Under the pieces are notes generated by a model, which saw nothing but the letters and a program-made list of their open reading frames with translations, ran no database searches and was not told the origin of the DNA. This document shows, one piece after another, positions 6,785-64,000 of a stretch of 64,000 bases of DNA. Every line of letters starts with the position of its first letter. The first letter of the stretch is position 1. Made by a program: the position numbers and the translations under genes. This DNA comes from Chloranthus sessilifolius (taxonomy: Eukaryota; Streptophyta; Magnoliopsida; Chloranthales; Chloranthaceae): the NCBI GenBank assembly GCA_021018995.1, contig CM037593.1, positions 17,698,088 to 17,762,087 of the forward strand. The letters are read 5' to 3'.

Positions 6785-6785
<1 letters not shown>

Positions 6786-6945
6786 CAGTCGATGGCGACT
6801 ATCTAAACAGTCGGGATCGACTGTCTAAGCAATTGATGGTGATTGTTTAAACAGTCGATGTTGCTTCTTTAAGCAGTCAGTACCGACTGTTTTAAGAGTC
6901 GCCAATCAACTGATTAAAGAGTCGGCATCGACTTTAAAAAAAAAA
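6785..6945. repeat. Palindrome array, AGTCG-N4-CGACT type, right arm
   Basis: Inverted partner of the array at 6148-6342. Units such as CAGTCGATGGCGACT and CAGTCGGGATCGACTG recur about every 22-25 bp. Confidence 0.8.
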
Positions 6946-8786: not shown

Positions 8787-9350
8787 ATGGCAAAAGAACT
8801 AGACTATGACGAGCTAAGCAAAAGGCTTGATCGAATCCCTGAAATGCAAAAGGTCAAACTTCTGGCTGCAATAAAGAGATTAGAAAAGCTGAAGGGCCAG
8901 CGACCCATTCTAGACGCTAAATCGTCTACCAAGACCCCCCGTTGCCATAAACTTCGTCCCAAAACAACCCTTTTTTTAACTTCTCACCTTCCCCACTCTT
9001 CACAATCTCACCGTCAAATTCCCACCTCAGTGCGAGTTCCTCTACGAGGATGGTGGGTGGGGAATTGGATCCAAGAGCGAGCTATCTCCCTTAGCGGAGC
9101 AAAAAATATGAAGAGTCCGAGACCGATCTCCATTGCAAACTCCCCTTCCTCACTCCTCCTCCCTTCATTCACTTGCCTGATTCCATCATTCACTTCTCCT
9201 TCTTTCGCCTCTCCCTACGCTCCCTTCTCCTTCATGACTGTCTCTCCATTCATTCCCTTCCACTTGATGACTTCCTCTCCCTTCATTCACTTCTCCTTCA
9301 GCCTTCGTCTCAGCCCTTTCGTCTCAATTGTCTCGGCGTATCTTTTGTAG
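8787..9350 (+). CDS. Hypothetical protein with basic helical N-terminus (187 aa), inside FAR1-type MULE region
   Basis: The start is supported by context: a CCTATAAAG TATA-like box at about 8705, a C-rich leader and CCCATGGC around the ATG. Residues 1-45 are charged and helix-like (KRLDRIPEMQKVKLLAAIKR); the rest is Ser/Pro/Leu-rich and may be past a missed splice site. No known domain is visible. The downstream part (9340-9420) has a diverged relative at 14325-14405, with shared CAATGTAATCTTTGCTC / CAGTGTCATCTTTGCTC text. It could be an accessory gene of the MULE or a captured host fragment. Expression is unproven and the 3' part may not be coding. Confidence 0.4.
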   Translation: MAKELDYDELSKRLDRIPEMQKVKLLAAIKRLEKLKGQRPILDAKSSTKTPRCHKLRPKTTLFLTSHLPHSSQSHRQIPTSVRVPLRGWWVGNWIQERAISLSGAKNMKSPRPISIANSPSSLLLPSFTCLIPSFTSPSFASPYAPFSFMTVSPFIPFHLMTSSPFIHFSFSLRLSPFVSIVSAYLL

Positions 9351-10424
9351 TATTTTGTCGACAATGTAATCTTTGCTCCTACAGATTCTTGCGATCACCT
9401 CATTAATAGCTGAATGAGGGAGTCATCTCTCTTCACAGAGCAAAAAATGAAAAAGACTCCGACACAGATCTCCATCACAAACTTTACCACTTGAGGGATA
9501 TTGTAATACATGAAGAAGCTCTTGGGAATGTCATTAAATTTCTAACGAACGTTTGCTTCTGTGAATCGCTCCGCCCGAGTTTAGAAGTGAAGATAACTAT
9601 TATTTCCAAAATCTTTGCTCTCTGTAGCAAAAACTTCAAAAGCTCGAGCTCATCTTCAAAGCCTCCAAAGTCTCTAATCTCAACTTTCTTTTGGTGGTCC
9701 AACGGATTTATCTTTAATGTAATCAGTTTATTAGTTAATCTCTGTAAATATTTCTTTCAATATTAATAGAAAATTTCTTTTTGTATATTATTTTCTTTTA
9801 TGTATTAATTTCTTATTCTCGGTGCACTTGGCACTATGATAAATTTTGGGGTATCTCGTGATTTGTTTTTGTTATGAATAATATAAACGTAGCTCCATAT
9901 TCAATGAAGCGACAATGCCTTGAATATTAGCCCCGATGATGCTTCAATTAATAAGTGTTGGCGTGTCAATTTAAAAGCGATGATAGTTCTACTTAGGAGC
10001 GTTAATGCTTCAATTTAGCAACATAAACATCTTATTCGAGCATTGACGCTTGTAATAATAAGCCCCATGATTAAAATCAAACATCGAGGCGCTTCTTATC
10101 GTAATTTGAGAGGAGTTCGTGAAATAGCTAGGCCCAATGCAATAAATATGAAGCGTCATCGATTTACGAAATGCCTTTAGTGACAGTGCGTGCACCATGA
10201 TGACTACAGCTTTCTGAGGCATTGCCACTCCTAACAACTAGCGAAATACGCGAAAATACAACACAATTCACAATTACATTTAAATGAAAAGCTGTGAGAT
10301 TGAATTTATATAAACGAAAGATATTTATTCTTATAAAGTACAACTTATGAAATTACATCGTAGAAGAAAGAAGAAAGCCTAAGAAAAATCTAGAAAGGCA
10401 CACAGACATCAGCAGAGCACAGTC

Positions 10425-10695
10425 GCCTCAGACATCAAGAGGGTGGAGAGGTAGACGACTCCCCCTTTGAACTGTATCGTAATTCGAGCACCCGCTCTCC
10501 AATATGGGAGACATAGCTTCAATCGCAGCCAGCCCTGCTTCAATACCATCCATCAACTTTTGCAGCCACCTCTTCATATTGGCCGGAAGCGCGAGATGTA
10601 GCTCAATATCCTCGGTCTTCTCCCTTTCAAGGGCGATTAAGAAAAAGAAACGCTTCGCTAATCTTGGACAACAAGTTGGGTTCTTCCGCCATGGT
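10425..10695 (-). pseudogene. Small coiled-coil-like protein, copy 2 (frameshifted)
   Basis: On the minus strand a start in good context at about 10692 (ACCATGGCGGAAGAACC) opens MAEEPNLLSKISEAFLFLN. A frameshift follows, then a second frame continues with MKRWLQKLMDGIEAGLAAIE and the tail CSNYDTVQRGSRLPL. The tail and the preceding helix are homologous to copy 1 at 7860-8100. Function unknown. Conservation of this tail between two diverged copies is the main evidence that the frame was real. Confidence 0.5.
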
Positions 10696-11325
10696 AATGG
10701 GAGTTTGGTTTAGGGACGAAAGGCAACAGACAGGATATGGAGTGAAGATTAAACTAACTGAAGGCTAAAAGGCATTTTTATTGGGCCCCAAAAAGCCGCT
10801 ACAATAAATAATATTTGAAAAGACAACAAACTCCACAATTTCAAACTCCTCAAAATTTATAATAAACGAAACGCCGCTTAAATTTAATCGCTGACACTTC
10901 AATTTAGAAGCGATAATGCTTCAATTCATTAGCGCTAACACTTCACTTTAGAAGCGTTGACGCTTCAATTTAGATGCGCTGGCGCAATAAGCCCCATGGG
11001 TAACATTAAACATTTGCGTGCTTCTTATTGTAATTCGAGAGGAGTTTATGAAATACGCACGACCGATGTAATAAATAAGAAGCGCAGAGATTTATGAAAT
11101 CCCTCTGTGGCGGTAGTACACCATAATGACTACAATAGTCTATTTAATAAAATTACATGACAAATTGTTATTTAAAGGGTATCAAAGCGCCCAAATTTTT
11201 TCATCTTCTGTTACTCCTTCGATCAAAAATTTCATCTTCCTCAGCCCAGACTGAAATGTGTCATAACAGTTTTAGAAAGACTCACCGGCTAGCGCACAAG
11301 CGTTTTTATCAGTTCTTACGATGGT

Positions 11326-11637
11326 TTGGTTATTGACATCCTCGACGACAACGAGTTGGTTGTCGTCCCTGACAACGAGCATGTGGTCTCCCCTCCCCCT
11401 GAAGAAGTTATCGTCATTCCGGATGATGACAACCTTCACGTTCTGCTGTCGGTTGTGGAAGACCCAGAGCCCCTTCTTTTCCCGGCTCTGAAGCCGGTGC
11501 TTCTTCTCTCGGCTCCGCAGTCGGTTCTTCTTCCACCTCCACCCTAGTCACAACCACCACCACCATCTCTAACTCAACTTCCCCATTTTCCACCGCCAGC
11601 ATAACAAACTCCCCACATCCGCCTATGCCACCATTTC
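11326..11637 (+). pseudogene. Acidic/proline-rich ORF interrupted by a solo LTR
   Basis: An ATG at 11326 opens a valine/aspartate/proline-rich frame (MVIDILDDNELVVVPDNE, then PPPEEVIVIPDDD). It stops at 11547, and C-rich coding-like sequence continues until the LTR begins. The same C/T-rich text resumes after the LTR at 14044 and ends in the segment (14325-14405) related to 9340-9420. I read this as copy 2 of the plus-strand gene at 8787, broken by the LTR. No known domain. Low-complexity composition limits confidence. Confidence 0.4.
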
Positions 11638-14043
11638 TGTGACGACCCGACTTTTCCAATCCCTCAGGTATAGGAAAGGTCGGTTCGCCAACCTATCGAA
11701 TAAACGATAAGCCGAACAAACAGGGCACATATCAGAGTAAAGCGTAATAAATATCCATAGCTAAAATAAATGCGGAAGCAATTAAAAGTAAAGAACCACC
11801 GATGATGGCCGACCATCATCGAAACATGGCTCATAACAGAAATCAACGTCAAATATAAAACTATGGTATCCAACTAAAATGGGCCCACAAATTCAAGTCT
11901 AACTCTCACCATAAATAAGAAAATCAGTAAGTTCTATACTGGGAAAAACTCCTCAGGAGAAACCTCAAGCTCTTCCTCAGGCACGTAGTCAGGATCAGTC
12001 TCACAGCCCTGAATAGCCACGTCAGTACCTGAACCTGTGACGTATAGTCGGAGTGAGCTAACCAACAAAGCTCAGTAGAAGAAAGACATTTACGGCATTT
12101 TACTTTAACTAATATGGTTTCAAAACAAATATCGGAATATAGCTTGTCAAACATATAAGCAGATAATAAACTGAATTTAGGTGCGAAAGTCATATGTAAG
12201 ATTTATTTCTAAATGTGTGAAAACAGTTTCAAGAACAGTCACGATGTTTGGTGTCTTAGTTTCTCTAACTTCTATATGCAAAGTTCAGTAATTCATGACT
12301 TAATCCTCAACTTAAAATACCTCCCGAGTAAACTATATCTCGAGAGCAGGAATATAGCCGATGGGAACCCCTACCTATCATCGTCGTTCATGAACCCTTT
12401 TTCAGGATGCAACAAGCCCTTGCGTAATGAGGGAAACTTGTGCCAGGAAATTGTTAAGGAATTTTTGAGGGGTCGTTCAGGTCAATCATAAAACAAATGC
12501 AGATACTAATATAAATCAGATGCAAGTCTCTTATACATAGTTCAGGTTCTTGATTTCAGATTTTCAGAGCTTAAGCCGATTCAGGTAGATTTAGATTTTC
12601 AGTCATCCATATCAATTTCAGTTTACAGATGTGATTTCAATGGCATATGCAAGTTCAAAGATTTTAATTCAAAGTATCCATGCGAATTAAAATAGAATAC
12701 TGTAAAGATGAGATTCTCCTACCAAAACTCGGAGTTATGCGAAGTCAAGCAAAGTCCTATTGATGGCCTCTCACCCTCAATCTACATCACAATATACGTT
12801 CATGTATTAAGATAAACTCTAATTACTAATAATATAGACCTATTTAAGCGTTTCCTCAAAAACAAGTCAAAACAGGCAAGTTGCGCCAATCCTAGAATTT
12901 GACGTAACATTCTCATATATTTTTTACTATCAAGACGATTGATCCATGAGTTGGTCAAAACATAAAAGTTGTAGATATTTCTATTAGCTTTCTAACGCAA
13001 TAAGAATCGTCTCAATCAGAGTTCGGGACAAAAAGTTATTACTAAAATACCAAGGCAATGTCGAAGTTCGACAATACCTCGCTCGAGCGATGATAATAGC
13101 TCGCTCGAGCGATTTGATGTAATATTCTCATATATTTTTGACCATCAAGACGATTGATCCATGAGTTGGTCAAAACATGAAAGTTGTAGATTTTTCTATT
13201 AGCTTTTCAACGCAAAAAGAATTGTCTCAATCGGAGTTCGGGATAAAAAGTTATGACTAAACTACTAAGGCAATGTCGGAGTTCGGTGATACCTCGCTCG
13301 AGCGATGATAATAGCTCGCTCGAGCGAGCTACAGCGACGCGATTTATTGGTTTTCACTGAACGAAACCCATACATCCCAAAGCAAAACCCATGGCTAATC
13401 TAATGATTTAATCAAAAGTTTAATTAAACGTACCTTTAATCTAAGGATTCCTAGATTAGAAATGAGTCATGAATGGAGCTTGAGCGAAACAAGCGGGTTT
13501 CCTCAACGATTAGATGCGATCGATCCCACGAGTTCACAGAGACAACTCCAACACGCCCCCAATGATCTCAACCTCTCCCAATAGTCAACTACGAATCCAA
13601 GGTTGATTCAAGTTCTTTCTAAGGTTTAAGTGTTTTCAACAAAGAGGGTTCTAGAGAAGGAGGTTTTCTAAACCGATCTCCTACGATGATTGAAGAAGAG
13701 AGAAGACGGAGTTTCACACGGTTGGGTAACTATCCTCTCTTAACAAAACCTAGTATAATACGGGAATGCAATTCCTTTTTATAATAGGATTGCTCACAAA
13801 GTAAAACACACACACACATCTTATGTATTATACACTTCTAATTTTAAAACTCAAGTCCGGTGTTGAGCGGCTACACCGAGGTCGGTGCACAACTTTCGCA
13901 CGAGGTCCAAATGGGCTCTAAATCAAAATCTGTCCGCACAATCACATCTAGATAAAAATTCAAAATAAATGGTGACGTCGGTTGCCAAGCTGAATACACA
14001 CACGGGGTCAATCTAACTCGGGTTCAAAATACGGGTCTTTACA
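11638..14043 (+). mobile_element. Solo LTR (2,406 bp) with 5-bp TSD ATTTC
   Basis: The element begins TGTGACGACCCGAC and ends ATACGGGTCTTTACA. The five bases ATTTC occur directly before (11633-11637) and directly after (14044-14048), as expected for an LTR-retrotransposon insertion. No gag/pol sequence lies between, so it is a solo LTR left by LTR-LTR recombination. The TG...CA ends and the GACGACCCG motif resemble large Ty3/gypsy LTRs of plants, which is a family guess. A 215-bp tandem duplication lies at 12901-13330. The insertion splits a proline-rich gene-like sequence. Confidence 0.9.
12901..13330 (+). repeat. 2 x 215-bp tandem repeat with TCGCTCGAGCGA palindromes
   Basis: Both copies share AAGACGATTGATCCATGAGT and AAGGCAATGTCG. 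Each ends in a pair of 12-bp perfect palindromes TCGCTCGAGCGA about 22 bp apart (first pair at 13079 and 13101). The repeat is inside the solo LTR, probably in its U3 part. Confidence 0.85.
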
Positions 14044-15049
14044 ATTTCCACCTCTACCTCCACTGCTACCTCCTCGACATCTGCCTCCTCCACCACTGCC
14101 TTCCTCACTGCCATGGCCGCGTCGACCCGCGACCCATCTCCCGCCACCACCTCCAACATTTCCATAAAATGTGGCATCCTTCCCCAACCAACCACCACCA
14201 TCACCATATCCACTCATCCACCAAATCCCAAGGAAAGCTCTACCTCTCTTCATTCTCTTTTCTTCTTTCGAGACAGAAGAAGGAAAGATAATAAAGGGAG
14301 GAGGAGCTTTCTTCCTTCCGATGCTTATCTGTTATGGTATTTTCTCGACAGTGTCATCTTTGCTCATACAGATCCTTGTGATAACCTCATCAATGGTTGA
14401 ATGAGAGCTCGCTAGATCGACCAATGCATCAGAATCATGTTTAATTTTATCAGATCCATTAACGATAAAGAAAGACAGTGTATAGGAAAACAGTGTAAAG
14501 AAAAACGTTATAAATAATAATAAGTGTCGTCACAATAATGGTAAGCGGCGTTTCATCAAATAAGAAGTGATGGCGCTTCAACCAAGATGTGATGATGCTT
14601 CAACTAGGACGCGATGACGCTTCTGCTCAGAAGCGATGATGGAGTAAGAAACACGATGTACAGAGACAGTGTAAAGAACGACGATTTAAAGAAATAATTT
14701 TGATTTATGAATGAAATCTTTTTTATCCTGATTAGTAAATCTTTTTTCTTCATAAATAGCTCTGAGTAATAAAAATGAAGCTCCATGAGTATATGAAAAT
14801 ATCAATCCACAGGAGTATGTTCATGAAAAGTTAACATTGATAAAGGTTCCAGGTTGAGTCGTAGGCGCTTCACTCACCTGGGATCCAATAGGCGCACAGG
14901 ATTAAAAAGAAGCATCAGCGCCGACGCATCAATGACGAAGCTCTCACGCTTAAAAAATGAGAATGTTAGACCGCTATCCTCCGTGCCATCCCCACCACTT
15001 CTACCACTTGGTATACAATAACCACCCCAGCTTCCTCTTCGACCACCTT

Positions 15050-16710
15050 TTGGGACTTAAAAGAGGCAAACTTTCAAAACTCAGAGTGAATCTATTGAAC
15101 ATGATTCTCATTTACAAAGCAACAACATGCTTCTCATTTGAATTTTCGAATAAGAGGTCCGGTGTCGTAGACATTGAGACGAGACCCTCTCTATTTTCTT
15201 TAACATGACGAGATTGGACGGCAAGATCATATTGTTTGATAAATTCTGTCAAACTCGTCTGGGCATTGACATAAGTATCGAAGAAAGAATTTATACTTTC
15301 TCCACATTGCATAGTAGTCATGTCGGCCCAAAAGGTATTGCTCAAGTAGCATAGAATCAATTTCCTTCTAAAAGCATACATTTATTTCAACCACGCATTG
15401 TCTTGCAATTGAAAGTCCTCGACAAGTTCTGCCCATCTCCTTTCGAAATCATCAACCGTTTGACTAAACTTGCATTGATTGTACTTTCTTTTAAAATTTT
15501 CAAACTTTACCTTCAGCTGAGAGAGATGGTTTAATTCATTCCTTCCTATGTGCCATAAGCAGAGGCGTTGCGTGGTCCCCGAAAGAACTTCAGAGATGAC
15601 CTTACTCATCTCGTTGCATTGATTGATGATAATTGCATTAAGTTTCTTATGACCCATGCACTTCAGTCACGTGTTAAATAACCAAATGAATGTCTCTTCC
15701 GTCTCATCCACTAGCAGCGCACATTCAAAAAGTGTCATCTACCAATGAATGGGGTGAACGATAGCAACAATTTATTTGTTTTGTAAGTAATATCGAATAC
15801 CACCACATCACCGAACTGTTGATACGCCATTTGTGACCTGTGATCAGTCTAAAATATACTACGCATACTATATTCTTCATCTAATTTGACTTCAAAGAAG
15901 AAACCATCTTCTTTATTCTACCTATCAATGAAGGTCTTGATTATGGTCGTGCACATCGAATCGATGTTCTCTCCTTTCTTATCTTCTTTAGGTAATCTCA
16001 CGTTTGTTGAGGGTTTACCATCAAGCCAGCCTCTCCATCCAAACTCGACAAAAAAACAGAAATCTTGGAAGAAAAAATTATGCCATCAAATAATCCTATC
16101 AACGATTTACTTACCCCGTTCATCTTATTATGTGATCGTAGTTCCTTCACCATTGTAGGTGTATACAACTGATAATTATACGGCTCTCTAAATTTCATAA
16201 CCTCCCATAAATTTTGGTTGTCGATCCTAATCTTCAACCTTGCTCCACATCCACATCTGTTATCTCTTGAACACTTTATATCGGCTTGTAATTTGCGCTT
16301 GTCAGGCTACTTGAACCATTCAAATGAACATGCATATTTTCTCTTTACAATCTCCCCTTTTGTGGATTTGTAAGTGTTACTTTTCCTGACGTTGAAACTA
16401 ACTTTCTTCGCATATAAATTATAGAAGTTATAGGTCTCATCTTTAGATTGGAATTTCAAGCCCATATGTGGCTTCCATTCCTCGCTCGTATTCTTGGCGC
16501 TTCCACAAGAATCCAACATTTCGATATACATATCACAATCAAGTGAAACTCCTTCTAATGAAATTATCTCAGGGGTAAAATTTAAATCAAAACCACATAT
16601 ATTGAATCCTCCAATCGAGTCCATTACCGCTCTTGCATTAGACAAAAAATAAATCAACAATGGGCTAATAAGAAAACAGATTCGAGTTAGAAACGATGAC
16701 GCGGTCATAC
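15050..16710 (-). pseudogene. FAR1-type Mutator-like transposase, broken
   Basis: On the minus strand the N-terminal part (about 16310-16708) holds a FAR1 DNA-binding-like domain, seen as WKPHMGLKFQSKDETYNFYN and KYACS. Next come the MULE core: FDITYKTNK (about 15790, first catalytic Asp), the block LCLWHIGRN (about 15550) and MQCGESINSFFD (about 15300, catalytic Glu). The position where the family usually has the second Asp reads IIINQCNEM, so it appears to be Asn. Several stops and frame changes separate the parts, and no SWIM finger is seen after 15050. The family includes Jittery-like elements and the domesticated FHY3/FAR1 regulators; the stops and surrounding palindromes argue for a transposon remnant. 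Confidence 0.8.
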
Positions 16711-17024
16711 CAAGCGCCAGTGCTTCAATATAGAAGCGATAGCGCTTTTAACTCGTAGCGTTGTCGCTTCCTATCAATTCAAATAAGAAGTATGTGTTTA
16801 TAATTTATATATTTTTAAATGCTTATAATTTTTTGATCTCTACCCTATAAATAAGTGAAGAGATCCATCAACTACAAGTAGATAAGGAAACCGATTCACA
16901 TACAAAGCGTCGCCGCGTGGGCGCATAAGCGACGACGCATCTAATGTCATATATATTTGAATGTTCTATAAGCAGAAAATAATACACAGGAAAAAGAATT
17001 AATACTTAGATCAAATGTTACTCT

Positions 17025-17360
17025 TCTGGCCTTCTATCCAGTACGTGTTCCAATAAAAAGAGAAAGTTGTCTCTTCTGCGCTTCTATTCAGTACGAGTTT
17101 CAGAAAAAAAAAAAGTTATCTCTTTTGCGCTTCTATCCAGTACGAGCTCTAGAAAAAAAGATAAAGTTATCTCTTCTGCGCTTCTATCTAGTACGAGCTA
17201 TAAAAAATATACAAAAGTTGTCTCTTCTGCTCTTCTATCAAGTACGAGCTCCAGAAAAAATAGAAAGTTGTCTCTTTTACGCTTCTATCCAATAAGAGCT
17301 CCAATATGAGAGAGAGAGAGAGAAAGAAAGTAGTGCGCTTCTATAGCGTCAGCACTCCAA

Positions 17361-17395
<35 letters not shown>

Positions 17396-17450
17396 AAGGT
17401 GCGCGCTTCTATTCAGACCGTAATCCAGTGAGAGGGTGTGCAGAGAAGCA
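17025..17450. repeat. Minisatellite of about 58-bp units plus (AG)n/(TG)n
   Basis: Six to eight imperfect units carry TCTCTTCTGCGCTTCTAT followed by CAGTACGAGCTCCAGAAAAA. The last units run into (AG)n and (TG)n tracts at 17309-17395. Open frames here repeat with the array and are not genes. The GCGCTTC word inside the unit is the half-arm of the palindromes to the left, so the array may belong to the same element. Confidence 0.85.
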
Positions 17451-17781
17451 CAAGCGACAGAGAGTAAATAAAATGAGGGAGAGAAGGAACCTACAAAGGG
17501 AGAGAAAGAACTTGAAGAGGCTGGAAAAAAGAAGGAACCTATACCATTTTTTGAATTATTTTACCGCCATATCATGACAAGGCTTTCCCCTTAGGGGCAG
17601 CGCTTCCTTCCTTCGCCAGATATAGCCTCCAGTATTCTTCTACTGCCTACTTTACCTATCACTGACACTAGGAAACCCTCGTTGTGGCTAACCCGGGTTA
17701 GTGCAAAAGCACTTTCCACATGTCCACTCCCCATTGGAAGAGCTTAGAGAAATCTCTACCCCCGAGCGCATTTTCCCTTTT

Positions 17782-24009: not shown

Positions 24010-24565
24010 CATGTCAATCGATTGACGATTGTATGTCAATCGATTGAGAATGGACAGTAGGGCAGATAATATTAAATGATATTATTTTGAAAGATTGTAC
24101 AGAATTATGTCAATCGATTGAGGAGGAATATTAAAGTAAATACTAATAAATGATATTATTTTGGAAAAGTACACTTAATTATGTCAATTGATTGACAATT
24201 AGATGTCAATCGATTGAGGATTAAATGATATTATTTTGGAAAAATACAGAGAATTATGTCAATCGATTGAGGATTGTATGTCAATCGATTGAGGAGAAAT
24301 ATTAAAGTAAATACTAATAAATGATATTATTTTGGAAAAGTACACATAATTATGTCAATCGATTGACGATTGGATGTCAATCGATTGAGGATGAAAATTA
24401 AATGGTAACAGACAAAACTCAATAGATTGAGTAAAACTCAATAGATTGAGCCTGAGCATGGATTCATGTCAATGGATTGAGAAATCAATTCATTGAGCAT
24501 GAATAGAGTTCAATGGATTGAGAAATCAATAGATTGAGCCTAAACATGAATTCAATAGATTGAGT
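24010..24565 (+). repeat. Array of TCAATCGATTGA palindromes
   Basis: The word ATGTCAATCGATTGA recurs singly or in pairs about 20 bp apart, joined by longer units containing AATGATATTATTTTGGAAAA. Toward the right the palindrome decays to CAATGGATTGAG and CAATAGATTGAG. It lies inside the solo LTR. Confidence 0.9.
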
Positions 24566-27025: not shown

Positions 27026-27826
27026 GGAAAATTTTCAGAACCGACCCTATCGGATTCACCTTTTCCATTAGAGACACTAGTGTTTCACTTTTCACCAAAC
27101 CGACCAGATCCAAGCCGAGCTGACGCCCACCTTTATGAATTGCCAAAATTACCCCCAAAGTATAAATAGCCGTAAAAAATCACAAATTATTATTGCTTTC
27201 CTTTTTACTTTTTTACTTTTTACATTTTGTTCAAAGGCGGCGGCGTTTCGAAGGCGGTAACGTTCCATTGTTCAATATTCAAGCTACTAAATTTGTTTTA
27301 AGTTCGAATCTTTTTCCATTATCTTCCACTATTGTAGAAATTGTTCTTCTTTCGAAAATCTATATTTTAGAGAGGCGATATCGCTTCTCTAGAGAGTCGA
27401 TATCCCTCTCTAAAGTGTCACTAGCACCTCTTTAGAGAGACAAATATCGCCTCCTTATTGAAAATGTATCTTATATTCTAATTTCAATTTAATGTTATGA
27501 TATTTTGAGTTTTCCTTTTTTTGTAAAAGATTTACACTCCCCTCAAACCAATTTCCTTCGTGTCAATCTTTGGCAACATCGATCTTTATACTGTGGCCTT
27601 CAAACTAGACGCCATAGATGCTGCTTCACATCGCGTAAATATAAAAAAATGCAAATTTTTAAAATTTAAAACTATATAGAACAATAAAAAGTATAAGGAG
27701 TATTTGAGATTTTTTGTGCTAGTTGGAACTAACTAGGCTTAAAGTTGGTCGGTTATTGGAAAGGTGAAATTATAGGGTCTTTGACGGAAAACATGAATCT
27801 GACAGGGTCGATCCTATAAATTTCCC
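27026..27826. mobile_element. Non-autonomous MULE (801 bp), 9-bp TSD TATAAATAA
   Basis: Ends GGAAAATTTTCAGAACCGAC and CGATCCTATAAATTTCCC are inverted relative to each other and match those of the 37612 element. TATAAATAA is perfectly duplicated at 27017-27025 and 27827-27835, a 9-bp duplication diagnostic of Mutator-type insertion. The left part resembles the 5' leader of the minus-strand gene in the 37612 element (TTTTTACTTTTTTACTTTTT); the right part resembles the arms of the 5834 element. A short palindrome set (GAGGCGATATCGCTTCTC) lies at 27366-27450. No coding capacity. Confidence 0.9.
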
Positions 27827-37540: not shown

Positions 37541-37611
37541 CAAATGATGTTGATAATGATGGGCTTTTTACAAAATAGCGCCTGTGCTATTTTTTATCAC
37601 CAAAACAACTA

Positions 37612-37720
37612 GGAAAATTTACCTGATTGACCCTATCAGATGTGCCTTCTACTACAGAGACCCTATAGTTTTACTTTTACTCAAATCGATCAGCTCGAAG
37701 CCGAGTCGGCCTTAAGGAGA
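37612..37720 (+). repeat. Left terminal inverted repeat of the MULE
   Basis: About 100 bp, inverse of 46765-46865. It includes the CTCGAAGCCGAGTCGGC region, whose counterpart in the 5834 element is TTAGCCGAGCC. Confidence 0.85.
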
Positions 37721-37950
37721 ATAAAAAGTTCATATTACCCAATTTTCTGACTTTCTTTAACCCAAATACATCCCATTTTTCCTTATTTTAATCTGCGCTA
37801 AAGTTATAAGAAGTTAGAGGTGGTGAAGGTGACGACGTCTTCTGCCTCAGATCTGCTAACTGGAAGAAGAAAACAGAGGTTTGGGAGAAGAAGTTCCTGC
37901 ATTTTGCCATTGGGAGTTGAAGATCCTGCAGTTTCCCATTCCGACGCGAG

Positions 37951-38376
37951 GTATGTTCAGATCCAGTGTAAACCGTATCAAAAGTTATTTTGGAAAAGGT
38001 AAATCGATATCGATTGTAAATAAATGCAGGAGCTGGTCAATTGTAAAATCGTCATCAACTGTTAACACAATCGATATCGATTGTAAATAAAATCGATATC
38101 GACTGCGTATCCAATAGTTACCGATTGTGTATCAAATCGGCACCGACTTTATAAACAATCGTTAACGATTATGTTTCCAATCGTAATCGATTGAGTATCC
38201 AATTGATATCGATTGTTTATGAAGTCGGTGACGATTGGATACGCAATCGGTAATGATTGGATACGCAATCAATTACGATTGGATACTCAATCGGTAACGA
38301 TTGGATATCAGTTGTTTTGCTACAAATTTTTCATATTCATCCGTCTTATGACTCCTTTCTTCTCCTTCTTAAACAG
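37951..38376 (+). other. 5' intron of the transposase gene, with palindrome array
   Basis: A donor-like GCGAG|GTATGTTC at 37951 and an acceptor CTTCTTAAACAG|GCGATG ending at 38376 would join a leader exon to the first ATG of the transposase at 38380. The array at 37995-38310 fills most of this intron, with units such as CAATCGTTAACGATTA and CAATCGGTAACGATTGG. The splice calls rest on consensus and reading frame only. Confidence 0.6.
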
Positions 38377-38379
38377 GCG

Positions 38380-41164
38380 ATGTTTGGTGTGGAAATTCCT
38401 CTTCTCTATCACTTTGATGGCCATATTATAAACGATGATAGCTTTTATCAAGGTGGCCACCGGAGGGTTATTACAATTTCGACGGATATATCTTATGACG
38501 GTTCAGAAGGTGAATTTCTGCTGTCAGTTTTGCGAGAGCAGATGAAACAATTTTCATAAAGTTCTCTATGAAGATAGTGAACACCCCTGTGCTTGCCAAC
38601 GTTTTGGATTCGGATGATTTGGCCACCCTATTTTCGTTTTATAAATCCTGGTCGAACATTATAAAGGTATTCATCATTAAAGAACCATCCTCCTTCCGAT
38701 TTGAAGCTAAACAAGTACCTCTAGGTGGGACTGATTTTGTGAGTAACCATTCCTTCCAGCCATGTAAGTTTAAGGAGGAAGGATTTACATATGATACTAT
38801 TTAGTTACGTGATGATGACAATTTTGCGGTAAACATATCCACCATGAAGACAACTTTTGATCTACATGTCTACAAAATATATCCACCATGAAGACAACTT
38901 TTGCGGTAAACATATCCACCATGAAGACTACAAAATATGCATGGGGCACATTGTAGTCAAGAGTTAGACTACATGTCTCTAAGAGTGAGGGATGAAGACG
39001 ATTTTCATCATATCTTTCCCGGTGGATTCACAACTTGGATGACTCACGAATTATGTTCTACTGTGCCATCGATGGGGATTAACGAAGAAGCTCAACCCTA
39101 TTTCCATACATATAATCACCCCTTCGGTGAAGGGACTAGTCAACCATGTCAGAACCCGTTCGATGAAGGGCTTAGTCAGCCATGTCCTGACCCGTTCCGT
39201 GAAGGGCCTAGTCAACCACATCAGAACCCCTTCGGTGAAGAAGGATCTAGTGAACCACCTTAAAACACTGCTGGTGAAGAGAACGTCGAAGATTATGATG
39301 ATGAACCGAATGAGTTTATAAAAGAGGATCCGAAATATTTTACGAGGGGCATTGATAATCCATTAGTAGATGGAGTTTATGAAGTGTCATAGACATCGGA
39401 CAAGTCTTCCGATCAAGAGGTGGAAACTGAATATCGGAATTGGACGTTTGAAGTTGGAGAGATCTTCAGAGATAAACAAACATTTCAAAGAGCATTGAAA
39501 GAGCACGCGATGGAAAAAAACTTTCAAATTCGGCCTTTGAAAACCGCTAATTATCGAGTGACAGTCGGATGCTACGAACCCGGCTGTTCATGGCGAATAC
39601 ATGCGTCTAAATTAACTGGGTTCGACACTTTCCAAATCAAGACGTTTAACAGTACTCACATATGCGGGGCCGTTAAGATCGGATCGCACGGTCACCGTAA
39701 TGCAACAATCTCGTTCGTAGCCAATTATGTACGGGAGAAACTTATGGAAGGATTCGACTACACCCCGGAGTCGATAATATTTGATATTACAAAAGCTTAT
39801 ATGTGCAAATCTCATATGTTAAGGCTTGGAGGGAGAAATAACTTGCCCTTAATGATATTAAAGGCAGTTAGGAACGACAATTTGTGGATCTACTAGTCTA
39901 CGTGAAGGAGATGGAGATGGTAGATCCTAATATACGAACATCCTTTCAACTAACGCTTAACGGTAAATTTTAAAGATTTTTTTGGAGTTTCGGCCCGTGT
40001 ATCGAAAGCTACCGTAATAAGCTTCGTCACACATTGCTTGTAGATGACACACACCTATGGAGACGTTACGAAGGGATCCTACTTATTGCCTCGGGGCAAG
40101 ACGATTATGGCTATATATTACCGTTAGCATTTATCGTCGTCGAATTAGAAGAAGAAGATACGTGGATGTGGTTTCTTAAACGAGTAGGTGCGTTCGTGAT
40201 CGGTGAATTTTTCGAAGATTTCATTTTTATCACGGATAGGTCGAAGGGTTTAATTAAGGCGGTCAAACATATCCTCCCTAATGCACACCACAACTATTGC
40301 ATGCAACATATGATACAAAATTTGCAATACAAGTATCCCAAGAACAATGTGAAGAGTTTATGGTGGTGCGCCGCGCGTGCATATTCAGTAGAGAAATTTA
40401 ATTATTTTATTAACAAAATGAAGGAAGATCCTGCTGATCCTCGGGCCGTAGAATATATTTTGAAAATAGACCCAAAGTATTGGGCACACGCACATATGAA
40501 AGGAAGGCAATATGATTATCTGACTATGAATAATGCCGAAAGCTTAATCAGCATACTAAAGATAGCTCGAGAGAGACCAATTATCGACCTAATCAGAACT
40601 ACTAGAGAGAAAGTCACCGATCATTGTCAAAAGCACAGACAGATATCTGAGAAATGGACCACCCTACTCTGTCGAAAAGCAGAAGAGCACATGAAGAAGG
40701 TACTGTAATGGGCCGGTAAGAAGAGAGCTCAACCATACGGGCGCCATCAATTTCAGGTCAATTTCAGAAATTTCATTCATCACGTCGACTTGGAACACAA
40801 GACGTGTACTTGCAGTCGTTGGCTTATTCATGGCTTGCCTTGCTCTCATGCCATGGCAGCTATCAATCGGAGAAGTTACGATTATCATAACTTCTGTGAG
40901 AAGTAGTTTTTCACTGCTTATTATAGACAAACATACGACGAATAATGGCTTCCCACCCTCGATAAAAGCCAATGGGCATTCCAAGCTGAGCAACTGCCTG
41001 AAAATATGAAAGTAAGACCACCCTACAATTTTCGAAAGTAAGTCGGCCGTCCGAGAAAGAGAAGGATAAGGTCTAAGGGTGAAGTTAGGGCCCTACAGTG
41101 TGACAGGTGCACTGAGTATGGTCACAATTGCAGGAGTTGCACGATAATTGGGCCCATGAGTTGA
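38380..41164 (+). pseudogene. MULE transposase (MURA-like) with SWIM and zinc knuckle, broken
   Basis: The first ATG after the 5' intron acceptor opens MFGVEIPLLYHFDGH and GGHRRVITISTDISYD, the usual N-terminus of plant MULE transposases. An acidic stretch with NPF-EG repeats (39127-39260) follows. The MULE N-terminal region (39420-39896) includes CSWRIHASK and HICG. The catalytic core has VDDTHL (40040), ITDRSKG (40225) and NNAESL (40527), so all three acidic residues remain. Then a SWIM finger CTCSRWLIHGLPCSH (about 40800-40855) and a knuckle CDRCTEYGHNCRSC (about 41098-41140), both with their metal ligands. Breaks: frameshifts near 38560 and 39900-40030, and stops at 39261, about 39391, 40706 and about 40903. 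Role in family: cut-and-paste transposition in the nucleus. Confidence 0.9.
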
Positions 41165-41689
41165 TACAATACAAGAAGTCAGCTAAATATTCAACTACAC
41201 CCCACAGTCCACTAGCTGTAAATTTCTCAAAAAATGTAAAGAAGTGTTGATAGATAGCCCTGGTGAGAATTGGGTTTGACTTGTAACTTCATTGGGGTTG
41301 TATCCAACCTGACGAATTTAAGGCAAGCTTGATACTCTTAAGAATTTTTAAAACTTTTTGTCACAGAGAGTCGATATCGACTGTAAATACGGTCGATATC
41401 GACTGCGAATATAGTCGATGTCGATTGCTTCTGCAATTGACAACGATTGTGTCTGCAATCGACAATGATTGCTTCTACAATCGACTGCTTGAGCTCTCTT
41501 TAATAAAGTCTGCGACAAGCCCAAAATCCGCCTAATGTTAACCAGCTGATATAAAAATTTTACATACTTGAGATTATAAATTTAAAAAAATAATGATTAT
41601 TTTACAATTAAAATTTAAAATTTTCATTTACAAATATCCTTGAATGTTATAAAGATACAACTACATACAATTTTAACTTAAAAAAAAAA
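41165..41689. other. Region between convergent genes, with palindrome array
   Basis: Contains a palindrome array at 41365-41490 (AGTCGATATCGACT, CAATCGACAATGATTG) between the 3' ends of the transposase and the ULP-like gene. It probably holds both 3' untranslated regions. No further gene. Confidence 0.7.
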
Positions 41690-42081
41690 ACTAGGGTGTT
41701 GCTGCATCAGTTGCAGGTTCTTCATCGGTGGCTCTCTCGGCTTCTCCATCGACAGTAAATTTAGCGAGGGCTTGGCCAATTTCTGCCATGATCTGACTCA
41801 TATTGCCTTGGCTGAAGTCAATTTCTTCTCCAACATGAAGTACTCTATATACTTCAAAACAAATACCCACAGTGCCAATCATTACTCTGTCGGGGTACGG
41901 ATTTGACCCTGCAATCAGAACTTGACTACGGATAGGTCCCAGCGTCCAATGCAGTGGAGTCTCCGTGTACATGTAAAAGCGTGGGAAGATATTTGGTCTG
42001 TTTTGAAAAGTACAATGTCAGATAATGGTTGATAAGATAAGTAGCTAAAATAAGCAGAAAAATATCTACAGATAATGTGTG

Positions 42082-42235
42082 ATCGATTTCCAAAACAATC
42101 GACAACGATTGCATAATCAATCGTTAGCAATTATATAAGCAATCGTTATCGATTGTACATGCAATCGTTCGCGATTGATTATGCAATCGTAGGCGATTGT
42201 ATAAGCAATCATAGCGATTGTATAAGCAATTTCAT
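42082..42235. repeat. Palindrome array in intron 6
   Basis: Units such as CAATCGTTATCGATTG, CAATCGTTCGCGATTG and CAATCGTAGGCGATTG, separated by TATAAG- or TTATG-like linkers. The candidate intron is 42322-41998 (donor GTAAGAAT, acceptor CAAAACAG). Confidence 0.85.
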
Positions 42236-42694
42236 TTGACTGCTTACACAATTGTATTCTGAGGGCAATTAAATAAGCGTAAATTGGAAATTTATTGATT
42301 TAAAGGTGTGGACAATTCTTACAAGGAGGTTGATTTGTATGGGATACTTGTCCTTTTAGGGCCTATCCAAAATTGGTGAGCCCATAGATCCCTCAACCTA
42401 TTGAAGAAGAAGTTTTGGAGCACCTTCTTGCCTGGGTTGGTTTCTTCCTTAAGGGTAGCCCACCGTTCAATTTGCGTGGCCATCGGTTTTTGGTTGAGTT
42501 TTTTTAGTATCAACAAAGAATCTAAAATCGTTATAATCCATGGCGATATATGACAAACCGGTGGGGTCATCAGGAAGAATTTATCCCCAACTTCAGGATG
42601 AGCAATGTCATCCATGACTTTCAAAAGTCTTAGGTAGGCTCCAATTATCTGAAAGATAATAAATTTCAGTAATCAACACACACTTCATTCGTTA

Positions 42695-42872
42695 TCGATT
42701 CTATACAGAGTCGGTGTCGACTGTTAAGACAATCGTTAATGATTGTCTAGATAGTCGGTATCGACTGTTAAGACGATCGTTAACGATTGCGTAGAGAGGT
42801 GATATCGATTGTCAAGACGATCGTTATCGATTTCTTAGACAATCGCGATAGACTATCTGGGCAATCGTTCTA
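42695..42872. repeat. Palindrome array in intron 5
   Basis: Units such as CAATCGTTAATGATTG and CGATCGTTAACGATTG with TAGA-type linkers. Intron 42969-42649 has donor GTAAGTAA and acceptor CTTTCAG. Confidence 0.85.
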
Positions 42873-43617
42873 TTTTTTTAATCAATCATTACTTTTAGAA
42901 AACTTGAAAAGAAAATAACTTTAGAAAGAAAGCATTAAGAAATTGAATATGAGAGATTTGGTTACTTACAAGATTGTCTAAGTATGCCGTGCCTTCCAGA
43001 CATTTGAATGTATGCATCCGGAGTGTATAATCACCCACGGAGCTTACGTAGATACTGCATGAAACATAACGGCCAAGTTTTAATTCAAAACGAAATTAAT
43101 CTTTAACTAACAATAGTATCATAAAGGACAAATTCGTAATATATGCAACTTACTCGGCATCCTTTTCGGGAGCTGTCTAGATGGCATTCATGGACCTCTG
43201 CTCATCTATCAACTCAACCGTAGGAGGGGGCATCGTCTCGGTTGGCAGTTTTTTTATAGCCTGCTTTTTTCTGTCCTAGGCTTTAAGGCAACATGTTTGG
43301 CTTTAATCCTAAGCCTTAGGCGAGTATCTAATGGTTGCTCGGATTGCTCATCACCAGTTGGACCACCCTTATCATCATAATCGTGGGATTGGTTATCAGC
43401 TGCTGCCAACTCCTCTTGGGCGGGAGGAGCTGGTGCCACATCTGTTGATCCTTGGTCGGCTAGACTAGCAGGTTCTGGTCTCATATCGGTAGTGAGAGAC
43501 ACTTCCGATAACAACTTAGAAACAGCACAATCCTGAACATCGAAAGACATAAAATTGATAAATAAGAAAAACTGATAATAGAATGACCTCTAAAAATAAT
43601 ATAAATCCATTCTGAAT

Positions 43618-43812
43618 CTAAACCGATCGTAATTACAATCGATACCGATCGTATTTACATTCGGTACCGATCGCCTAACGATTGCATTTACAATCGATAA
43701 CAATTACATTTACAATCGATAACGATTGCACATACGATCGACATCGATTGCACATACGATCAGTATCGATTGTACATACGATCGGCATTGATTGTACATA
43801 CGATCGATAAAA
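43618..43812. repeat. Palindrome array in intron 3
   Basis: Units such as CAATCGATACCGATCG and CGATCGACATCGATTG with ATTTA- and CATA-type linkers. Intron 43852-43533 has donor GTATGATT and acceptor GTTCAG. Confidence 0.85.
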
Positions 43813-44517
43813 AATCGAATTAAACTAAAGCAGACTACACTGCCAATCATACCTTGGGTGTCACCTCCAAGATCGTTTGAAGGAGTTTTATAATTTTTCC
43901 TTGCTCTTTTCGGATCAACTTGTTGAAGTGATCCACCGTTTGCAATTAAACATCCCTTGAAGTGAGCCGTTCTTCAAAGGAGTTGCATTGTGTCCGGAGG
44001 AGCCTATTCTCCTCCACCAACCGCTTATTCCCTTCCACCAATTGGTTAACTAACACTTCCAAATGGCTAGCTTTTTGGTTGAGTTTCAAGTTATCCAACT
44101 CCAAACCATCAATCCTCCTCAACAACTCTTGATTAGAGGAGGTTGGTGTACTGCTGCTTGTCTTCACGGAGACCTTTTTAGGCCAGTCTAATTGGACTTG
44201 GACCTCATCTGATGAAGAGCCTTCGTCAGACGTTGTTTGGTCCTCAAATTCTTCCTCTTCAACTTCTTTAACCGGAATATTTCTTTTCTTCTTGGGCCGC
44301 AAATCAACTTCCACAGCTTTCTTGACCTCCTCAACCTCTTTCCTCTTCCCCCCAATTTCCCCCCCAACAGCCTTTAGAACCTGCTGATAATCCCTTACGA
44401 GTGGTATGTCCAACTCGAAGGTAACGGGTTCGAGGGGAGCATAAATCTATTACGAAAAAGGACATGTTGTAAAATAATATAGAAAAATTACAGAAATTGA
44501 AAAATCACTGTAATATA

Positions 44518-44780
44518 ACGACTGCGTAACGAGTGGAAACCGATTCCATTTACAGTCGATACTGATTGGGTAGGAAGTCGATACCGATTGTGTTGGAAGT
44601 CGACACCGACTGTGTAGGCAGTCGATAACGATTACTTAATCAATCGATCTGACTTCGTAGTCAGTCGATTCCAACTACGTAGGCAATCGATACCGATTGC
44701 TTAATCAATCATCCGATTCCGTAGTCAGTCGTTTCCGGCTATGTAGGCAATCAATATCGATTGATTTAGTAATCGAAATT
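44518..44780. repeat. Palindrome array in intron 2
   Basis: Units such as AGTCGATACCGATTG, AGTCGACACCGACTG and CAATCGATACCGATTG with GTAG-type linkers. Intron 44842-44447 has donor GTATGATG and acceptor GTAATAG. Confidence 0.85.
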
Positions 44781-45717
44781 ACTCTTTAAAGTTCTTACAA
44801 ATTTACCTTTACAAATTTGAATTAGTTAAAACAACATCATACCTTGCTCTGGACCTTAGTTGTAAAAGTCTAGCCTTTATTCCTCGTTTGGGGCTTCTCC
44901 GCCTACTTCAACAATCGGAGGAAAGGGTTTAGCATTGACGTTCTTTGAGGTGAGATGTCAGGCAGCATCTTATAGGCCTACCACTGAAGTACACACATAC
45001 AGCCATAAATATTATACGGCTTAAGCGCTTTATCGTTGTCGGTAATCTTTCTATTTGTCATGCCCTTCTTTATATACTCTAGCAAGTCTTTGAAGACGTA
45101 CAGACCCCACGGGGTTTTTTTAAAATTTTCCACGTCATCGACGAGTTCAACGTGGGCTTCCGACAATTGAAGATGGGACCCGAAAAAAAGGAATGTACAT
45201 AGAACAAAAAGAAGAGCCAACTTGACGAAGTCGTCATCACTTTGCGCTAGCCTCAATCCACTATCAATATGAGACCGAAGAATTTTCCCGGCCGGTAGTT
45301 CCCGAAAATATTTGTATCGAATGGTTTCCACTTCAGGTGCTTTAATGGAAGGGGAATACTGTTGGAGTTCAACAACCACAAGGCCCAATATTAAGGCAAC
45401 GCCTATCTCCCGAAGATAGGCATCTCTCCTCCCGATTCGGAAGTGGTTCTTCTCAACCCAAAAACTTAACATGGCATCCACGACATCTCCAGTAAAACTA
45501 ACACCCTTTGGCATTTGAAATATTCTCCCGAAACTGATGCACTTAGCATCTCCTTCTGCTGCGGGCTAGCGTCTTCGTAAATCTTCGAAATGCTAGTAGG
45601 AGAACATTTGCCAACAGCATGCTGTACAACCATTTTGCAGGCTTCTGTATATGAATTGTAATAAAATTGAAAGATAATGTTTATAAACATGGTATAATCA
45701 GGCTACATAAAAAATCG

Positions 45718-45842
45718 TCAATTCCCTAAACAATTGTCATCGACTGTTTACACAATCGTCATCGACTTTATACACAATCGTCATCGACTGTTTATACAAT
45801 CGATATCGATCGCATTAACAATCGACCGTATATACAATTGTC
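45718..45842. repeat. Palindrome array in intron 1, part a
   Basis: Units such as CAATCGTCATCGACTG and CAATCGATATCGATCG with TTTATA-type linkers. A poly-T run follows at about 45847-45868. Confidence 0.85.
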
Positions 45843-45889
45843 CAATTTTTTTTTTTTTTTTTTTTTTCTTTTTCTTATTCTTTTCTTCC

Positions 45890-46465
45890 TTCGCCAAAAT
45901 TTTCATTACTTCATCGTTTTCGTCCCAAATGAACTTAAGATGATCTGGTTCTGGTGATGTTAGTGGGTCCTCCCATACAGGATCGAATTTGATTGAGTTA
46001 TAATAGGTTATAAGGTGTTTTATCGTCGTCGTTTGACATTGAGAAATATGGGGGCTGGTAGGGATAATAGGGAATGATATTTGCTGGTGATGGTGGAATA
46101 CTTTTAGGGATAATATCGATAGCGATTGCCTCTACAATCAATAGCGATTGCATATACAATCGCTAACGATTGTATATACAATCGCTATCGATTGTATATA
46201 CAATCGATATCGATATTATCCCTAAAAGTATTCCACCATCACTAGTAAATGATTTTCCACCATCACCAGCTAAATTATTCCCTATTATCCCTACCAGCCC
46301 CCATATTTTCCAATGTCAAACGACGACAATAAAACACCTTAAAATCTACTATAACCCAATCAAGTTCGATCTTGTATGGGAGGACCCACCACCACCACTA
46401 GAAATAGATCCTCTTAAGTTCCTTTGAGACGAAAACGATGAAGTAATGAAAATTTTGGCGAAATC
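45890..46465. repeat. 570-bp imperfect hairpin with a palindrome array at its apex
   Basis: The left arm from about 45893 (CAAAATTTTCATTACTTCAT, then GTGGGTCCTCCCATAC) is the imperfect inverse of the right arm ending at about 46461 (ATGAAGTAATGAAAATTTTG, preceded by GTATGGGAGGACCCAC). The apex 46112-46206 is a palindrome array with CAATCGCTATCGATTG and similar words. It lies in the long intron 1 of the ULP-like gene. Confidence 0.88.
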
Positions 46466-46522
46466 GATATCGATTGTATATGCAATCGATATCGATTGTA
46501 TATACAATCGATATCGATAAAA
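46462..46522. repeat. Palindrome array in intron 1, part b
   Basis: Three near-perfect units with CAATCGATATCGATTG and TATAT-type linkers, just outside the 570-bp hairpin. Confidence 0.85.
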
Positions 46523-46764
46523 ATTACTACAAAATGGACACCGATGAAAGAAGAAGAAAAAACTCAACAACAATTAATGAAAATTTATTAGCTACTTACA
46601 GGTTTCGTAGCTTGAAGATTGAAGCACAGAATGCTAGCGACTCTCGACCGCCTCTCCACCGACTTCGAACGAAAAAGTAAAAAAGTAAAAAGGTAAACAG
46701 TGAAGGGTTTGATGAAGGCGGCTATTTATTACATTGGGATAAATCCGGTATTTCCTAAAAGCGA

Positions 46765-46865
46765 AAGATAGCTCGGCGCGCAGCTGGTCGATTTGGGTAA
46801 AAGTGAAACTATAGGGTCTCTGCAGTAAAAGGGACATTTGACAGGGTCGGTCAGGTAAATTTCCC
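46765..46865 (-). repeat. Right terminal inverted repeat of the MULE
   Basis: Inverse of 37612-37720. On the minus strand it lies directly upstream of the ULP-like gene leader, so it probably includes that gene's promoter, as MULE ends often do. Confidence 0.85.
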
Positions 46866-46874
46866 AAACAACTA

Positions 46875-52398: not shown

Positions 52399-52755
52399 CT
52401 AGCTTGGCGCAAAACTTTTATCACATTTGATTTTATGAACCTGTAGGAGAGGTATTTGAACCAGTTCTTTATTTAAAGCGAGACCAATAGAACCAATGTT
52501 AAGGTTAATTGGTAAGTAGGCTGTGAGAAAGTTATTGTCTGATAAAAAAATCTCTATGCATATTTGGGAAGCAAGAATTTTTGAAATAATAAATTTTTTA
52601 TCATTAAACCAAATTGAAATATTTTTCGCTTTTAATTCAATGGTAGTTTGTTTACCTTCAATTCCTTTTACAAAAATCGGGTGCTTTATTTTAACCCATT
52701 TTTCAAGTGGTAGCGCGTCGTATCTACAAGCACCAATTGTTGCTCTTGTATCCAT
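52399..52755 (-). pseudogene. Pararetroviral aspartic protease region
   Basis: The frame begins with MDTRATIGACRY, where the retropepsin-like D-T/S-G motif reads D-T-R, so the Gly is altered. It lies directly upstream of the reverse transcriptase, the normal order in the polyprotein. In the family this enzyme cleaves the viral polyproteins. Confidence 0.75.
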
Positions 52756-52899
52756 AAAGACACATAGACTATATGATTTATAGTATTAGAACATAAAATT
52801 TCCTCGAACATAAGTATATCATCTTTTACTAAAGCTTGGGAAAACAGTATTTCCGCATTTTTTGTTTGGAAGTGATAAATGTTAAAAGTTTCGATTTAA

Positions 52900-62759: not shown

Positions 62760-64000
62760 TCCAACCCTCCTTATGAAATTTCGTCCTCGATATTTAAGAT
62801 TATCTACCAAACAACTATGGATACTTTTCTCTCACTTCTTCTCACTCCCAAGTTGTTTCCCTTTCAGAATTATTTTGCCATTGAATCTTGACCAGCGAAA
62901 TCTTCTTATTGTGAAATACTTGTTCTTTGCTGTCTAAAATTCGGGTAAGTTGTTCAATATAAGACAAGTCATCACCAATTGGTATCGGTTCGTACTCCAA
63001 TATATGAGCAGGATCTCGAACACATCTTCTCAATATGAAAACATGGAATACGTTGTGGATGGTTGACATATACAAAGGCAATGCTAGTCTATAAGCAACT
63101 TCCCCAATTCGATTCAAAGCCTCAAAAGGACCAATAAACCTTGGGCTCAGTTTACCTTTCTTCCCAAATCGCATCACTCCTTTAGCTGGAGATACCTTCA
63201 AAAATACATGATCAACCTTCTCAAACTCTAAATCTCCTCTTGGCATATGAGTAACTTTTTTGTTTGCTCCGAGCTGTCTAAAGTCGATCTCTAATGAGTT
63301 TAATCTTCTTTATCGTTTTCTACACTACTTCCCTGCCTAACAACTTTCTTTCGCCATCCTCATCCCAACAAAGAGGTGAATGACAAGGTCTACCATACAG
63401 AGCTTCATACAATGTCATCTGAATATTGGCCTAGTAGCTATTATTATATGCAAATTCAATCAAAGGCAAGAATTGATCCCAACTTCCTTTAAATTCCATC
63501 ACACAAGCCCGTAACATGTCATCTAAGATCTGAATTACTCTTTCCGACTGCCCATCAGTTTTTGGGAGATAAGTTGTACTAACCTCACAATCTCATTGAC
63601 AAACAGCTGGGTCAATTTGGTCAACGGGTCATTCTTCCTGATGGCTAAGAAATGGACCGACTTCGTTAATCGATCAACTACAGCCCAAATAGTATCATGA
63701 TTATTCTTGGTTCAAGGAAGCCCCATAACAAAATCCATCATAATATCATCCCACTTACATTCTGGAATATCTAGGGGTTGTAATTTGCCTGCGGGTTTCT
63801 GGTGCTCTGTCTTAATCTGACAGATCAAACATTTTAAAATATATTGAGGAATGTCTCCTCTCATATTGTATCATCAAAAATTTCGCTTTGAAGTTTGATA
63901 CATTTTGGTTATACCTGGATGAAGGATGTATTTAGATCGATGGGCTTCGTCCAAGATCTGCTTCCTCAATTCAAGAATGTCAGGTACACACAATCTACCA
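62760..64000 (-). pseudogene. Ty3/gypsy integrase with chromodomain-like tail, broken, continues past the window
   Basis: From the right edge the minus strand encodes the zinc-binding/core junction ([20 protein letters not shown]), the core block [13 protein letters not shown] with the first catalytic Asp, IWAVVDRLTKS, then TDGQSERVIQ with the catalytic Glu in another frame, and SWDQFLPLIEFAYNNSY. The block that normally holds the second Asp, between the NEIVR and DGQSER parts, is missing. The intact frame 63246-62842 covers LSPRFIGPFEALNRIGEVAY and a chromodomain-like end (KIQWQNNSERETTWE). Several stops are present. The role in the family is insertion of retrotransposon DNA. Confidence 0.88.

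Follow-up and report, generated by a model that had tools for sequence, protein, structure and literature searches.

Palindrome arrays in the non-coding DNA of a Chloranthus Mutator-like element as candidate docking sites for a VANC-type anti-silencing protein

Arabidopsis VANDAL elements, which are Mutator-like elements (MULEs), encode VANC proteins, marked by the domain DUF1985, that bind short tandem motifs in the elements' own non-coding DNA and bring about loss of DNA methylation (Hosaka et al. 2017, PMC5735166). In the accessible portions of that paper, VANC21 binds YAGTATTAY, often in tandem and at high density, in the introns, intergenic and terminal DNA of VANDAL21, and the targets of VANC6 carry other motifs, with binding again accompanied by loss of DNA methylation. 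These non-coding regions are also the targets of RNA-directed methylation, and the ends of VANDALs are described as degenerate (Sasaki et al. 2023, PMC10398659), while VANC genes carrying Ulp1 are stated to act likewise on non-coding motifs (2026 review, PMC13317346). Outside this group Spm TnpA and maize MURA have been linked to demethylation, MURA working on terminal repeats (PMC10398659). The subject here is a decayed MULE with two opposed genes, in a stretch of 64,000 nucleotides from Chloranthus sessilifolius (contig CM037593.1; ‘the window’ is this whole stretch), whose non-coding parts hold arrays of the palindrome AATCG-N4-CGATT. The abstract of Sasaki et al. 2022 (EMBO J) is said to deal with DUF1985, DUF287 and Ulp1 domains, motif density and helical periodicity. 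In the parts of the literature surveyed neither a palindromic CpG-bearing VANC motif nor a zipper in a VANC protein appears, though Sasaki et al. 2022 could contain either.

Exact matches to ARTCG-N4-CGAYT number 34 in the window against 0.13 expected from 30 first-order Markov shuffles; 27 are within the element and seven at 6193-6920, in a relative considered below. All 27 are non-coding, with none in 5443 bp of called exon (introns were called from splice sites visible in the sequence, without RNA, and the division into exon and non-coding DNA rests on these inferred introns; the count ran over 37611-46866, one base past each element end). They sit in five of the six introns of the minus-strand gene, in the 5′ intron of the transposase gene and in the space between the genes, just as a first-pass annotation of this DNA had proposed, and its remark that the 99-bp intron 4 is the only one free of an array was also borne out, arrays being present in six of the seven inferred introns of both genes. 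If one mismatch is tolerated, all 55 sites are non-coding, and if two are, 68 of 75, the exons then holding 7 versus 5.8 +/- 2.6 in exon shuffles; at three tolerated mismatches the exons account for 55 of the 158 sites, versus 43.3 +/- 6.4 in shuffles. Near-matches in exons are thus at or slightly over background, and purging of the motif from exons is not indicated. Since units within an array copy one another, the nine arrays (65 units) are a fairer count than single motifs; all nine are non-coding, for which the chance under random placement by length is ~3e-4 (0.412^9). Spacing between units is 22 bp in 50 of 56 instances, the others being 33 (two) and 21, 42, 43 and 45 (one each). In having a short motif in dense tandem in non-coding DNA, and not in exons, the element resembles the VANC-type systems.

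We consider it likely that the second protein of the element itself used the arrays as clustered binding sites, acting by analogy as a VANC-type (DUF1985) anti-silencing factor and reading them as a dimer. Support comes from the 9-bp duplication and MuDR-type transposase that mark the element as a MULE, from the match of the second gene to DUF1985 (though sub-threshold), from an array placement like that published for VANC21, from the wholly non-coding motifs, their 22-bp spacing, a core more uniform than the linkers and a seven-leucine zipper in the second protein, and from a relative without long frames that has kept 13 units; the published statement on VANC genes carrying Ulp1 (PMC13317346) speaks for it too. 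Membership in the VANC systems is not claimed, because the DUF1985 match falls below threshold, the ends lack the degeneracy of VANDALs, and binding and demethylation rest on analogy. The first-pass annotation knew of no description of such an arrangement; however, the general layout, motif arrays in the non-coding DNA of a MULE, is already known from Arabidopsis as VANC target arrays (Hosaka et al. 2017, PMC5735166, in its accessible portions), and it is the docking site that differs here.

Table 1. Features of the element, its arrays and its relatives in the window
Feature	Position	Strand	Remark
MULE, whole but decayed, 9254 bp	37612-46865		two opposed genes, arrays in non-coding parts
Target-site duplication AAACAACTA, left copy, 9 bp	37603-37611
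Target-site duplication AAACAACTA, right copy, 9 bp	46866-46874
Left terminal inverted repeat	37612-37695	+
Right terminal inverted repeat	46782-46865	-
Broken MuDR-type transposase gene	38377-41165	+	DBD_Tnp_Mut, MULE, SWIM; 3′ limit estimated
Transposase 5′ intron	37951-38376	+	splice sites read from sequence
VANC-like gene, 7 inferred exons	41691-46760	-	broken by stops and frame changes
VANC-like gene, exons	46600-46760, 44843-45644, 43853-44446, 43154-43532, 42970-43054, 42323-42648, 41691-41997	-
VANC-like gene, introns 1-6	45645-46599, 44447-44842, 43533-43852, 43055-43153, 42649-42969, 41998-42322	-
DUF1985 match, profile 83-139 of 141	45080-45247	-	place computed from residues 107-162
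Leucine zipper, 7 consecutive leucine heptads	43997-44125	-	exon 3
Array, transposase 5′ intron	37998-38306		13 units
Array between the two genes	41365-41485		5 units
Array, intron 6 of minus-strand gene	42090-42232
Array, intron 5 of minus-strand gene	42683-42868
Array, intron 3 of minus-strand gene	43612-43812
Array, intron 2 of minus-strand gene	44528-44770
Array 1a, intron 1 of minus-strand gene	45728-45815
Array 1b, intron 1 of minus-strand gene	46110-46218
Array 1c, intron 1 of minus-strand gene	46458-46522
Foldback relative without long reading frame (longest 93 aa)	5834-7192		13 to 14 palindrome units
Second short relative, 801 bp	27026-27826		9-bp duplication TATAAATAA at 27017 and 27827

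The minus-strand gene (Table 1) keeps its reading phase over introns 4, 5 and 6, and its first exon, whose upper limit is assumed, is probably 5′ untranslated region. Its detectable domain is DUF1985, matched with E 3.8e-6 along 57 of the profile's 141 positions at 27.3 bits, or 27.0 in a second scan, under the Pfam cut-off of 35.1. The label ‘ULP-like’ that the first-pass annotation attached to the gene is unsupported, as the joined C-terminal exons give no Ulp1/C48 Pfam match even at E 10, though a Ulp1 domain might have decayed past recognition. Exon 3 has the run of seven leucine heptads, equalled in one of 200,000 shuffles of its frame, and a palindrome would naturally suit a zipper dimer as its reader. 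A search by sequence for solved structures of the DUF1985 frame found none, and AlphaFold without an alignment gave an unusable model (mean predicted local distance difference test score 39.4). An exon might have been overlooked in intron 1; within it lies a 189-nt inverted duplication (45890-46078 and 46274-46462, 90% complementary, with array 1b between the arms) that may contain such an exon in duplicate.

As to the element, its 9-bp target duplication is perfect and its terminal inverted repeats have 86.9% identity over 84 bp (94 bp at 84% in a separate listing of inverted repeats). Transposase and second gene are arranged 3′ end to 3′ end, and since stops and frame changes disrupt both, this copy is a relic. 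The transposase scores above the Pfam cut-offs for DBD_Tnp_Mut (54.9 bits), MULE (63.9) and SWIM (41.3), and a protein search with it gave seven relatives at 26-34% identity, the named sources being Tasmannia, Asparagus, Ananas, Macleaya and Cardamine. Among viral contigs five stretches fitted a pattern for it with no true relative among them, plasmid records held none, and the array pattern had no match in viral contigs.

Three functional options for the arrays had been offered at first pass, transposase binding sites, splicing aids, or arrays that insert or expand only where coding is not harmed, and they fare unequally. The MULE transposase might bind the palindromes to assemble a transposition complex, or might itself relieve silencing as the demethylation link of Spm TnpA and maize MURA would allow (PMC10398659, in its accessible portions); its MuDR-type DNA-binding domain, the clustering of the motifs, and the position of the foldback relative's arrays in its long inverted arms all speak for this. 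However, most arrays are kilobases from either end and spread through introns, which makes transposase binding, though possible, less likely, and the 84-bp terminal repeats have zero exact matches to ARTCG-N4-CGAYT; terminal repeats are where MURA is described as acting. On balance we regard this explanation as improbable.

For units picked by the motif (59 of 65, those at 42075, 42228, 42863, 43659, 43813 and 44642 being omitted from the identity and CpG counts), the core is 0.81 identical between arrays, the 4-bp gap 0.50 and the linker 0.47, the corresponding values within arrays being 0.83, 0.55 and 0.51; column counts of these units give the extended consensus A-N2-C-AATCG-NTAN-CGATT-G-N2-T. 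Choosing units by motif match inflates both the identity of the core and the proportion of CGs found intact, and Tandem Repeats Finder rows were therefore used for the test of constraint: 12 hand-picked rows of period 22, aligned by rotation only, other overlapping rows being omitted and rows of the same intron treated as separate. In these the ten half-site columns have identity 0.82 between rows and 0.89 within, and the other twelve columns 0.52 and 0.75. Ten columns drawn at random reach the value of the half-site core 47 times in 200,000. The ten best columns have a mean of 0.86, whereas none of 300 column-shuffled controls exceeds 0.49. With a core common to the arrays and divergent linkers, the core looks constrained; linkers more alike within rows than between them point to local growth of each array with its own linkers and one core retained. 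To this extent the first-pass suggestion of selection, drawn from the spread of one motif through nearly all introns, stands for the motif itself, though the published anti-silencing explanation was not among its options.

Neutral satellite growth, in which slippage or copying spread the palindrome where coding was unharmed and no protein reads it, ranks next and is improbable too. It would sit comfortably with exon near-matches at background rather than purged, with local expansion under array-specific linkers, and with the similar arrays of a probable FAR1-type MULE remnant in the window, for which no reader has been identified. Observed/expected CpG is 2.47 in arrays, 0.80 in exons and 0.84 in the element's other non-coding DNA, an excess due in part to the copying of a CpG-bearing unit. 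CpGs decay fast when methylated. That half-sites holding such dinucleotides nevertheless keep an identity of 0.82 between arrays, versus 0.52 elsewhere, argues against growth with no reader, as does the resemblance to published VANC arrays, which, in the accessible accounts, are bound. Of the 118 half-site CGs of the 59 chosen units 97 are intact, and TG or CA stands in place of 17 of the 21 lost ones, which is what methylation of this copy would be expected to leave. Pure tolerance, then, is disfavoured because the core is retained while linkers differ, though tolerance of insertion may well account for array growth in introns only.

Exact palindromes make up 19 of 60 units (43659 being restored for this test) versus 20.9 +/- 2.3 after re-pairing halves within arrays (P 0.85), so that halves within a unit do not co-vary beyond array identity; positions 2 and 13 are linked in the pooled units (P 0.034, 62 of 65 units), which is taken to reflect the presence of A-type and G-type arrays. 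An aid to splicing, by folding of the palindromes in pre-mRNA to draw splice sites together, is very improbable: though six of seven inferred introns have an array and a single unit could fold into a short hairpin, arrays are also present in the intergenic space and in the foldback relative without long frames, halves match no better than re-paired ones, the pooled link mirrors array type, and the 99-bp intron does without.

To return to a VANC-type reader, its action can be envisaged as follows. The product of the minus-strand gene would combine a DUF1985 region with a leucine zipper (both seen in the sequence of a broken copy, DUF1985 below threshold), and its zipper dimer would bind AATCG-N4-CGATT, with many sites in register at 22 bp, about two helical turns. 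Occupied clusters in introns and intergenic space might then, as with VANC21 and VANC6, remove or block DNA methylation and restore expression of the element. Local tandem duplication would enlarge arrays where coding is unhurt, with selection for binding preserving the half-sites, as the contrast between core and linker conservation supports, and gene-less relatives could retain arrays for activation in trans, which agrees with the foldback relative and not with the nearly array-less second one.

Several points weigh against a reader of this kind. Both genes of the copy are broken, the DUF1985 match is partial as well as below its gathering score, and a Ulp1/C48 match is lacking. Two protein searches with the read-through minus-strand protein (8000 and 1113 candidates scored) gave no relative, versus the seven for the transposase. 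The re-pairing test detected no surplus of exact palindromes, and one of the two short relatives has almost no array. As written in the accessible portions of the published account, VANC21 and VANC6 motifs are non-palindromic and without CpG, and VANC21 sites have a single orientation; the clear terminal inverted repeats here also differ from the degenerate ends reported for VANDALs (PMC10398659).

The terminal repeat of the foldback relative is related to the ends of the element (76.6% over 94 bp), its right end being cut; 13 units were counted (6309 omitted from 14), 11 with G at the second position. Retention of its arrays without long frames fits a site acted on in trans, with which the near-loss in the second short relative, where the palindrome is reduced to one decayed pair at 27373-27408, disagrees. 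A third half-site form, AGGCG-ATAT-CGCCT or -CGCTT, is present in both (6108, 6955, 27373). TA microsatellites lie on both sides of the middle of the foldback relative (6344-6783), which suggests a nested insertion.

The probable FAR1-type MULE remnant (~7190-17000) has, on the minus strand at 15382-16747, sub-threshold matches to FAR1 (24.9 and 24.3 bits, cut-off 28.1) and MULE (24.7, cut-off 27.6). Its palindrome, AAGCG-N4-CGCTT, has 32 sites with up to two mismatches versus 3.0 expected, and 11 of 19 intervals below 60 bp are exactly 22. DUF1985 was found in none of 13 scanned frames, of the 57 of at least 55 aa listed for 7100-17500; a fragment of an FBD (F-box associated) domain, over its Pfam cut-off, is present at 9484-9756. 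Both palindromes appear to have a common design of 5-bp half-sites ending in CG, a 4-bp gap and a 22-bp period. It is a doubtful further step, though one worth stating, that in a line of MULEs with terminal inverted repeats zipper-dimer anti-silencing arose on a palindrome whose half-sites each hold a CpG, so that binding could be blocked by methylation of these sites and a two-state switch result, and that a FAR1-type MULE adopted the design with a half-site changed by one base; were this so, arrays of this kind would not be confined to DUF1985 elements.

If the arrays do serve a VANC-type reader, this kind of anti-silencing would extend to a MULE bearing terminal inverted repeats and to sites read in another way, as CpG-bearing palindromes with near-helical phasing bound by a zipper dimer, and would offer a direct test of methylation gating binding at the site. 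Given the CpG contrast between arrays and exons, such systems could be recognizable by sequence alone, through CpG palindromes phased at 22 bp, and plant genomes scanned for them.

Elsewhere in the window, tandem repeats in an unrelated-looking stretch at 24015-24560 include the palindromes TCAATCGATTGA and TCAATAGATTGA, some spaced 22 bp. A reading frame at 52399-52785 has a match to a caulimovirus-type aspartic peptidase (PF02160, 1.2e-9) and is perhaps a fragment of an old integrated pararetrovirus, and a frame with a Tf2-1-like SH3 domain at 62842-63309 is a retrotransposon integrase end. Rfam at gathering scores has no match across the window.

Among described systems, each compared from the accessible parts of its sources, Spm TnpA and MURA of MuDR (PMC10398659) provide element-encoded proteins tied to demethylation of the element, as proposed here, but MURA acts on terminal repeats and the present arrays are internal. 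KI-MULEs and Ulp1-carrying VANDALs (PMC2528002, PMC13317346) likewise have a second gene reverse to the transposase and non-coding motifs, though KI-MULEs are described as lacking terminal inverted repeats and bearing Ulp1, and the present element has such repeats and no Ulp1/C48 match. VANDAL21 with VANC21 and VANDAL6 with VANC6 (PMC5735166) share with it a transposase plus a second gene (of DUF1985 type there, with a sub-threshold DUF1985 match here), short motifs in dense tandem within introns, between genes and elsewhere in non-coding DNA, local repeat expansion, and motifs that vary among related elements. Because of its 84-bp repeats at 86.9% the element is not classed with the VANDALs, and its likeness to a VANC system is confined to the presumed way of working. 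A leucine zipper is present in its minus-strand protein, and the motif here differs from that of VANC21 in being palindromic, with one CpG per half, and in recurring mostly 22 bp apart, near two helical turns.

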